DNA of 64,000 nucleotides from Pyrobaculum ferrireducens. GTDB taxonomy: Archaea; Thermoproteota; Thermoprotei; Thermoproteales; Thermoproteaceae. This document shows, one piece after another, positions 5,205 to 6,862 of the stretch. The stretch is from contig NC_016645.1 in assembly GCF_000234805.1 (NCBI RefSeq), positions 1,278,391 to 1,342,390 of the forward strand, in the 5' to 3' direction. Position 1 is the stretch's first letter. Each line of letters starts with the position of its first letter. The position numbers and the translations under genes were made by a program. The notes beneath the pieces were generated by a model. That model was given only the letters and a program-made list of their open reading frames with translations. It had not been told where the DNA came from and searched no databases.

Positions 5205-5585
5205 TCACTCCCTCGCGGCTATTACGGCTATCTCTATTAAAACGTCTCTGGGGAGCCTCGCGGCCTGCACGGTGACGCGGGCGGGGGGCTTCTCGGGGAA
5301 GTACTGGGCGTAGACTTCGTTGAAGGCGGTGAAGTTGTTTAGGTCTGAGAGGAACACTAAGGCCATGGCCACGTCGCCGAGGGTGTAGCCCGCGGCCTCC
5401 AGCACGGCCTTTATATTCTCCAGCACCTGCCTCGTCTGCTCCTTTATGCCGCCCTTGACCACCTCGCCGGTTTTCGGGTCGACGGGGATCTGCCCCGCGA
5501 CGAAAAGCATCTTCCCCACCTTAACCGCCTGGGAGTAGGGGCCGATGGGCTTGGGCGCCGCCTCTGTGTAGACAACCTCCTTCAT
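5205..5585 (-). CDS. ridA: RidA family enamine/imine deaminase
   Basis: RidA-type proteins are trimeric cytosolic enzymes that hydrolyse reactive enamines and imines, such as 2-aminoacrylate released by PLP enzymes. The 126-residue length is standard. Diagnostic segments are present: [20 protein letters not shown] near the N-terminus, [12 protein letters not shown], the FN.VYA.YF stretch, and [20 protein letters not shown], whose Arg binds the substrate carboxylate. The start ATG at 5585 lies about 24 bases after a TATA-like element (GTTATAAAC, minus strand, 5605-5613). That promoter overlaps the end of the DUF3800 gene, so ridA probably heads its own operon. Confidence 0.93.
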
Positions 5586-5606: not shown

Positions 5607-6071
5607 TTATAACATCACCCGCCTACCCCCACACAGCCTCTCTCTGTAGTAGCCGGCCACCACGTCGGCGAGCTGTATGCCGGGGGTGCGTCTCGAGTCT
5701 CTCTCGACGTACCTAAACCCCGGCCTCAAGTCGCCGTGGAGCAATTGGTTGTCCAACACAGCCAGCGCGGCGTCTCTGGCCAGCTCCTCCAGCTCCCGTA
5801 GAAATCCCTCGGGGGTTTTGTAGTGAAACGCGGTGTACCGCAACTCGGCTGCTTTCTCTATCAGTGCTATTACGGCCTCTGGATTCCCCCTCCTCTTTAC
5901 GGCGCGCCACTTCAACTCGCCGCCGATTCTCAACATCCTTTTGATATTGTCGACTAGGTGTCTACCCAGCTCTAGATACGTGGCGCCTCTGCTTGATGCA
6001 AATGCCACGGCGCCGAGGGCAACACAGTTGCAGACGTCCTTCAAGCCGCTCTCGTCAATGAAAACAATCAC
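5607..6071 (-). CDS. DUF3800 family protein (RNase H-like fold)
   Basis: The protein shows the DUF3800 pattern: an N-terminal FIDESG with the first acidic residue, GELKWRAVKRRG, and a C-terminal RRTPGIQLADVVAGYYRERL with the last Asp. Those acidic positions suggest a nuclease-like active site, and family members are often found in mobile or defence contexts; the true activity is unknown. The frame is open up to a TTG at 6086, but I place the start at the GTG at 6071 because a TATA-like TTAAAAAG lies about 26 bases upstream. That leaves 154 residues. The tandem hairpin repeat at 6105-6218 lies just upstream. Confidence 0.75.
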   Translation of the reverse strand: MIVFIDESGLKDVCNCVALGAVAFASSRGATYLELGRHLVDNIKRMLRIGGELKWRAVKRRGNPEAVIALIEKAAELRYTAFHYKTPEGFLRELEELARDAALAVLDNQLLHGDLRPGFRYVERDSRRTPGIQLADVVAGYYRERLCGGRRVML

Positions 6072-6104
6072 AAAGCTTTTATACAAGAACTTGCTTTTTA
6101 ACTA

Positions 6105-6218
6105 GTGAGGCCGGGGGACATGTCCCCCCGGAATGGGGAGGGAATCCCCCGCTGACTTTCCGTGAAGCCGGCGGATATGTCCCCCCGGAATGGGGAGGGA
6201 ATCCGCCGCCGACTTCCC
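6105..6218 (+). repeat. Tandem 57-base hairpin repeat (two units)
   Basis: Units 6105-6161 and 6162-6218 align without gaps and differ at only a few positions. Each can form an outer stem (CGGGGGA/TCCCCCG in unit 1, CGGCGGAT/ATCCGCCG in unit 2) and an inner stem TCCCC/GGGGA closing a CCGGAAT loop. The middle pair of the outer stem is G-C in unit 1 and C-G in unit 2, a compensatory change that supports selection on RNA or DNA structure. It lies between two divergent genes (DUF3800 and nicotinamidase). No known RNA family is recognised. Confidence 0.7.
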
Positions 6219-6256: not shown

Positions 6257-6862
6257 ATGTTGCCGGAGAGTGTAAAGGTGCCGAAGATCGCTCTGGTGGA
6301 TAAGGTGTCTCTTCCGGCGAGGAGGACTGCGGTTGTTGTGGTGGATATGCAGAACGACTTTGCCCACCCCAATGGGAGGCTGTTTGCGCCTGCGGCTCGG
6401 GACATAATTCCGCGCATCGCGGCGCTTCTGGAGCGGGCTAGGCGGAGCGGGGTGAGGGTGGTGTATACGCAGGATACGCACTACAGAGACGACCCAGTGG
6501 AGTTCCCCATCTGGGGTGAGCATGTGGTTAAGGGGAGCTGGGGGTGGCAGATTGTGGATGAGCTCAAGCCGGGGGAGGGAGATGTCGTGGTTGAGAAGAT
6601 GAGGTACGACGCCTTTTTCGGCACGCCGCTTGACCACGTGCTCCGCATGTACGGCGTGCAGCACCTCGTGGTGACCGGCACCGTGGCTAACATCTGCGTG
6701 CTTCACACGGTGGCCAGCGCGAGGCTTAGGCTTTACGATGTGGTTGTGCCCATAGACGCAATCGCGGCCCTCAACGAGTTTGACTACGCCGCGGCTCTGA
6801 GGCAGATGGACTTCCTCTACCGGGTGACGCTGACGAAGACGGAGGGGGTGGAATTCATATAG
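6257..6862 (+). CDS. Nicotinamidase / isochorismatase-fold cysteine hydrolase
   Basis: The enzyme probably converts nicotinamide to nicotinate for NAD salvage. The catalytic triad of the family is visible: D30 in VVVDMQNDF, K114 in VVEKMRYDAF and C147 in GTVANICVLHT, with the cis-peptide region TGTVAN just before the cysteine. At 201 residues the length is normal. The next step, nicotinate phosphoribosyltransferase, is encoded at 26866-28026, which favours nicotinamidase over other isochorismatase-like hydrolases. It is followed after 13 bases by a membrane kinase-like gene in the same direction. The ATG at 6257 is preceded by AT-rich sequence containing TAATATTTGG. Confidence 0.8.
   Translation: MLPESVKVPKIALVDKVSLPARRTAVVVVDMQNDFAHPNGRLFAPAARDIIPRIAALLERARRSGVRVVYTQDTHYRDDPVEFPIWGEHVVKGSWGWQIVDELKPGEGDVVVEKMRYDAFFGTPLDHVLRMYGVQHLVVTGTVANICVLHTVASARLRLYDVVVPIDAIAALNEFDYAAALRQMDFLYRVTLTKTEGVEFI

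Follow-up and report, generated by a model that had tools for sequence, protein, structure and literature searches.

The tandem hairpins at positions 6105–6218 of the window, the 64,000-nucleotide stretch of Pyrobaculum ferrireducens DNA analyzed here, form the 5′ part of a compact unit of about 540 bp in which one hairpin, or two, and a promoter region precede a DUF3800 gene whose product is predicted to be RNase HII-like; the unit occupies varied sites in Thermoproteaceae, a family of heat-loving archaea. The original prediction placed the element between two genes; it does not stand alone there, since it constantly accompanies the 5′ side of the left-hand gene, DUF3800. Our preferred explanation, which we hold with slightly better than even confidence, is that the hairpin is an RNA bound by its cognate DUF3800 nuclease, likeliest as a partner or restrainer, within a mobile hairpin-plus-nuclease unit.

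Two adjacent units share one hairpin fold

The two 57-base units, 6105–6161 and 6162–6218, align without gaps at 89% identity and constitute the sole tandem array detected by TRF in the 64 kb window. Both fold into an outer stem, an internal loop and an inner stem, which bears out the original prediction of two adjacent units sharing a two-stem hairpin. The hairpin of the proximal unit (unit 1), nearest the DUF3800 gene, spans 6112–6151 on the minus strand, as delimited by repeat detection, the consensus structure and a covariance-model match of 80.6 bits. Its outer stem pairs 6144–6151 with 6112–6119, its inner stem pairs 6135–6140 with 6124–6129, and a five-base loop occupies 6130–6134. The distal hairpin (unit 2), farther from the gene, adopts the same fold at 6169–6208 (minus strand, 80.9 bits). 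For both hairpins, the minus strand denotes the sense of the DUF3800 gene and is not an assignment of the transcribed strand. The distal unit is more stable than its shuffled versions on either strand (z of −3.3 on plus and −3.5 on minus), and the proximal unit by itself is no more stable than shuffles (z of −1.2). The middle pair of the outer stem is g6115–c6148 in unit 1 versus c6172–g6205 in unit 2. This exchange of G-C for C-G, the observation that first drew attention to the element, is real, though it counts as one event because it recurs solely at the orthologous locus of a sister genome.

The hairpin lies beside a DUF3800 gene

BLASTN places copies of this hairpin, which we call type A, in six of 11 genomes of the genus, each time with a DUF3800 reading frame, or what is left of one, after the hairpin and oriented like it. 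A covariance-model search had been proposed with the original prediction, and we ran it over 81 genomes of the class with a model built from 12 type A units (R1), taking matches near 20 bits as noise. The search returned homologues with conserved stems, comprising 16 strong matches (43–81 bits) at 13 loci in 11 Thermoproteaceae genomes from three genera. Each of the 16 units precedes a gene of one DUF3800 subfamily by no more than about 100 bases, on the same strand. Ten of the 13 loci carry one hairpin, so the tandem arrangement is not universal. The adjoining gene is intact at six loci and broken by stops or frameshifts at the other seven, and in genome G003 it is reduced to a relic. Adjacency to a DUF3800 gene holds for every strong match of R1 and of the sister-type model R2 described below, decayed genes included.

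A decayed type A unit is also present on a contig labeled Calditenuaceae (L115). Its flanks match those of the Pyrobaculum copy in G001, so the contig is probably misbinned, and horizontal transfer to Calditenuaceae was rejected. A virus origin was likewise rejected, as the viral contigs searched contain neither a DUF3800 relative nor a match to the core. A GTDB scan with a single query confirmed nothing, and the scan was then repeated with an alignment.

Hairpin and gene form a compact cassette

The cassette in the window (5628–6212, minus strand) runs between TCGG at the distal hairpin and the region of a conserved Cys codon close to the gene's 3′ end. Its left neighbor is a RidA-family gene (5205–5585, minus strand), and on its right lies an isochorismatase/nicotinamidase-like gene (6257–6862, plus strand) that is present in 11 of 11 genus genomes searched. 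In G003, G004, G005, G006, G008 and G010 these two genes are adjacent without an insert. Of the DUF3800 and nicotinamidase setting noted originally, the DUF3800 neighbor is thus an integral part, and the nicotinamidase-like gene merely marks the host site. In non-syntenic copies the common stretch consists of hairpin and gene only, about 520–540 bp, and single-hairpin copies with measurable ends span 533–540 bp from TCGG to the conserved Cys region; the window cassette is longer by one hairpin unit. Hairpin and DUF3800 gene appear to move together. The earlier suggestion of a mobile-element relic seems partly right, as to mobility, and the term relic does not fit the copy in the window. Neither a target duplication nor exact ends could be demonstrated, the available empty sites being too diverged to read them. 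In G001, about 550 bp of other sequence with no clear DUF3800 match separates the RidA and nicotinamidase genes (L128, 2100–2656), so this site may take insertions repeatedly.

The DUF3800 protein is predicted to adopt an RNase HII-like fold

The DUF3800 gene (5607–6071, minus strand; Pfam PF12686) encodes 154 amino acids from a likely leaderless GTG start at 6071. Its alignment shows conserved residues D6, E7, S8, G9, E52, K54, H83, D107, S126, Q133 and D136, with D6, E52, D107 and D136 among the invariant positions. We take the D6-E7-S8-G9 segment to resemble the DEAG motif of RNase HII. The AlphaFold model is confident (pLDDT 91), and Foldseek returns nine matches below E 0.001, all of them RNase HII, H2 or H3 chains (best match E 1.9e-5, probability 1.00); transposases and resolvases are not among the best structural matches. 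A search of the PDB by sequence alone retrieved nothing. The modeled protein therefore probably shares the fold of RNase HII and RNase H2, but it is only about 150 amino acids long and 11–18% identical to them over the structural match. A published survey describes DUF3800 proteins as having an RNase H fold and an association with putative non-coding RNAs (PMC10910872).

Base pairing is conserved in type A hairpins

Across the 12 type A units, 95% of stem cells are paired, and four pairs are changed on both sides, in eight such cells. The covariation score is reached by none of 500 shuffles and lies above all versions in which the pairing partners are slid, an operation that abolishes the signal. 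As sequence comparison goes, covariation over 12 units is stronger support for the fold than the single compensated pair of the window. The type A genes have saturated synonymous sites (dS above 1.2) with dN well below dS, and the hairpin core is almost invariant despite this saturation in the adjoining genes. The comparisons support a hairpin that is conserved and under selection, with compensatory changes and homologues elsewhere in place of free drift of the stem bases.

Sister hairpins are tied to other DUF3800 subgroups

A protein search identified a second DUF3800 subfamily (B), 37–45% identical to subfamily A. The same slot upstream of the subfamily B gene holds a type B hairpin with the core TGCTTNTGCCCC-TNNC-GGGGCCGCAT, present in nearly every case as two tandem units at 51-base spacing. 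Two further core types occur beside more distant DUF3800 subgroups; a Pyrodictiaceae contig carries one of the two. The four core types (A–D) are each tied to their own DUF3800 subgroup, and all carry RCAT on their 3′ side, with the outer stem coming after it. Two hairpin repeats are found in the window and at type B and type D loci, and a single one at most type A loci. Over the same 81 genomes, R2, the covariance model of the sister type, matches at such DUF3800 loci only, plus two sites with decayed genes where a DUF3800 remnant is still detectable.

Covariation in type B resembles that in type A at lower strength; it resides in the outer stem, and the inner stem does not vary. The variable core bases are identical between tandem units at eight of eight loci, versus 61% between loci, and the outer stems are 84% alike within loci versus 81% between loci. 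This combination of matched cores and differing stems suggests recognition by the cognate DUF3800 protein: judged from these alignments, copying of whole units would not easily give the pattern, and two cores matching one protein would.

Two other loci are recorded here as separate observations. In G006, a CRISPR array lies a few hundred bases from a type B DUF3800 unit (L016, 40–1328), and its repeats resemble CRISPR-DR45 below the gathering score. At L166 (G287), which belongs to another family of the phylum, two near-identical hairpins in tandem (GTTGTCGGGAGGATTCCCGGCGACAGTGATCCCG) precede a DUF3800 gene by at most about 190 bases and have no Rfam match.

TATA-like boxes separate the hairpin from the gene

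A TATA-like box, TTAAAAAG, is located between hairpin and gene at 6094–6101 (minus strand), about 27 bases upstream of the DUF3800 GTG start, and within subfamily A an AT-rich position is conserved 13–17 bases from the hairpin edge. A second TATA-like box at 6076–6083 reads TATAAAAG on the minus strand and CTTTTATA on the plus strand. Types A and B both have such a box at 28–36 bases from the edge of the hairpin, and it could serve as a promoter for reading the opposite strand through the hairpin. The sequence upstream of the hairpin shows no consistent or conserved box that might be a promoter of its own. Because the TATA-like boxes stand between hairpin and start codon, the hairpin is probably outside the main mRNA. 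Counts of G-U versus A-C favor the gene-sense strand in type A and not in type B, so that the two types contradict each other on the transcribed strand.

The hairpins are previously unlisted members of a DUF3800-associated class

As the original prediction had it, no RNA family is recognized: the hairpins match no Rfam family model at the gathering score, nor the DUF3800 models at E-values up to 1–5. Rfam lists several DUF3800 RNA families, for example DUF3800-VI (RF02915), DUF3800-X (RF02984), DUF3800-I (RF02969) and DUF3800-IX (RF02968), which reportedly stem from a comparative survey of 2017. A control scan of DUF3800 neighborhoods elsewhere in the phylum found two of these. DUF3800-VI precedes the DUF3800 gene and shares its strand; DUF3800-X comes after the gene and is carried by the opposite strand (minus-strand sites L150 2176–2269, L158 2161–2248 and L170 2154–2225). 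DUF3800 RNAs thus have no single place with respect to their gene. Sub-threshold matches to the sot0042 and HgcC RNAs were also seen near a DUF3800 gene (L172, 2682–2905, minus strand).

Given the adjacency to DUF3800 genes, the presence of Rfam DUF3800 RNAs elsewhere and the absence of a family match, we regard the hairpins as previously unlisted members of the DUF3800-associated class. Like its listed members, they are structured elements directly beside a DUF3800 gene, in the upstream, same-strand slot of DUF3800-VI, and types A and B display a conserved secondary structure with covariation. Unlike them, they are short two-part hairpins, often tandem, seen only in Thermoproteia lineages. 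Shape, tandem habit and a mobile unit of constant length make them a distinct variant within the class. By analogy with this precedent, the earlier suggestion of a small RNA may be considered partly right.

Discussion

In the explanation that we prefer, the hairpin would be made as RNA and its conserved inner core would be the part that the cognate DUF3800 protein binds, while pairing would be the main requirement in the outer stem and the second tandem unit would supply a second binding copy. The likeliest role of such an RNA would be to partner and restrain a nucleic-acid-cutting enzyme, as the RNA antitoxin repeats of type III systems restrain their toxin, and the nuclease/RNA pair may act as a mobile module that is either selfish or defensive. 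The type III toxin-antitoxin systems ToxIN, CptIN and TenpIN likewise combine a small nuclease gene with tandem structured repeats placed directly before it, in a mobile locus of compact size. They differ from the present loci, which have just one or two repeats, promoter-like boxes between repeats and gene, and a protein that matches Pfam DUF3800 only, not the ToxN, CptN or TenpN family. The fold of ToxN also differs from the RNase HII-like fold of DUF3800. A bolder version, which we consider improbable, is that the unit of about 540 bp is a minimal autonomous module whose RNase HII-like nuclease and co-evolving hairpin RNA form an RNP responsible both for spreading the module and for protecting or addicting the host.

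The main rival to the RNA reading is a site at the level of DNA, in which the DUF3800 protein binds or cuts a palindrome, or an extruded or single-stranded hairpin, that serves as unit end, operator or both in the manner of REP/RAYT systems. We judge this possible, if rather unlikely. Palindromic DNA recognized by a protein could yield equal covariation, and transposases and resolvases are among the proteins with RNase H folds. The block common to the copies begins at the hairpin itself, which sits just upstream of the TATA-like boxes and lacks a conserved upstream promoter from which an RNA might be made. However, structural comparison ranks RNase HII enzymes first, the hairpin marks one end only, neither a second end motif nor a target duplication is demonstrated, and Rfam classes the DUF3800 neighbors as RNA. 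REP palindromes are also paired beside one enzyme gene, yet a search of the 81 genomes for dispersed extragenic copies found gene-adjacent copies only, and the enzyme here has an RNase H fold instead of that of a Y1 transposase.

It is very unlikely that the hairpin is the scaffold or guide RNA of an RNA-guided nuclease, anchoring the protein while its flank guides, as in the TnpB-omega RNA systems of IS200/IS605. In favor are the small mobile unit with an RNase H-fold nuclease and a structured element, its frequent decay and its scattered locations, but the resemblance goes no further than layout. Here the hairpin lies upstream and does not overlap the 3′ end of the gene, and no variable guide is demonstrated beside it. 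A relic of a tnpB 3′ end with its omega RNA, which had been prompted by the reading MSPRNGEGIPR, was rejected, as none of the examined tnpB loci has the hairpin. Separately, G003 contains 57 TnpB zinc-ribbon matches in a 1.8 Mb genome, far above its relatives.

We give similarly little credence to the idea that the hairpin sits in the 5′ leader of the DUF3800 mRNA and regulates it in cis; the original prediction, too, had raised a cis-regulator. The upstream position, the shared orientation and the Rfam typing of DUF3800-VI as Cis-reg would suit it, but the TATA-like boxes separate the hairpin from a start codon that appears to be leaderless, at the spacing of a leaderless transcript, and DUF3800-X is on the other strand at the 3′ side. 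Functionless duplicated sequence or a transposon relic, to which the broken type A genes might point, is highly improbable and already contradicted by the near-invariant core beside saturated synonymous sites, the covariation and the complete tie to one gene family.

DUF3800-associated pairs of RNA and gene are a known kind whose role is not settled in the literature consulted, and the compact version described here was previously unlisted. Among the DUF3800 pairs compared, these loci are the smallest form. They offer matched tandem cores, natural broken-gene versions, sister cores for swaps, an empty-site comparison and a strong structural match to RNase HII, so that the question of whether the hairpin acts as a cognate RNA is directly testable. 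If the RNP module were real, it would constitute a further small mobile RNA-nuclease lineage beside TnpB and the type III toxin-antitoxin systems.
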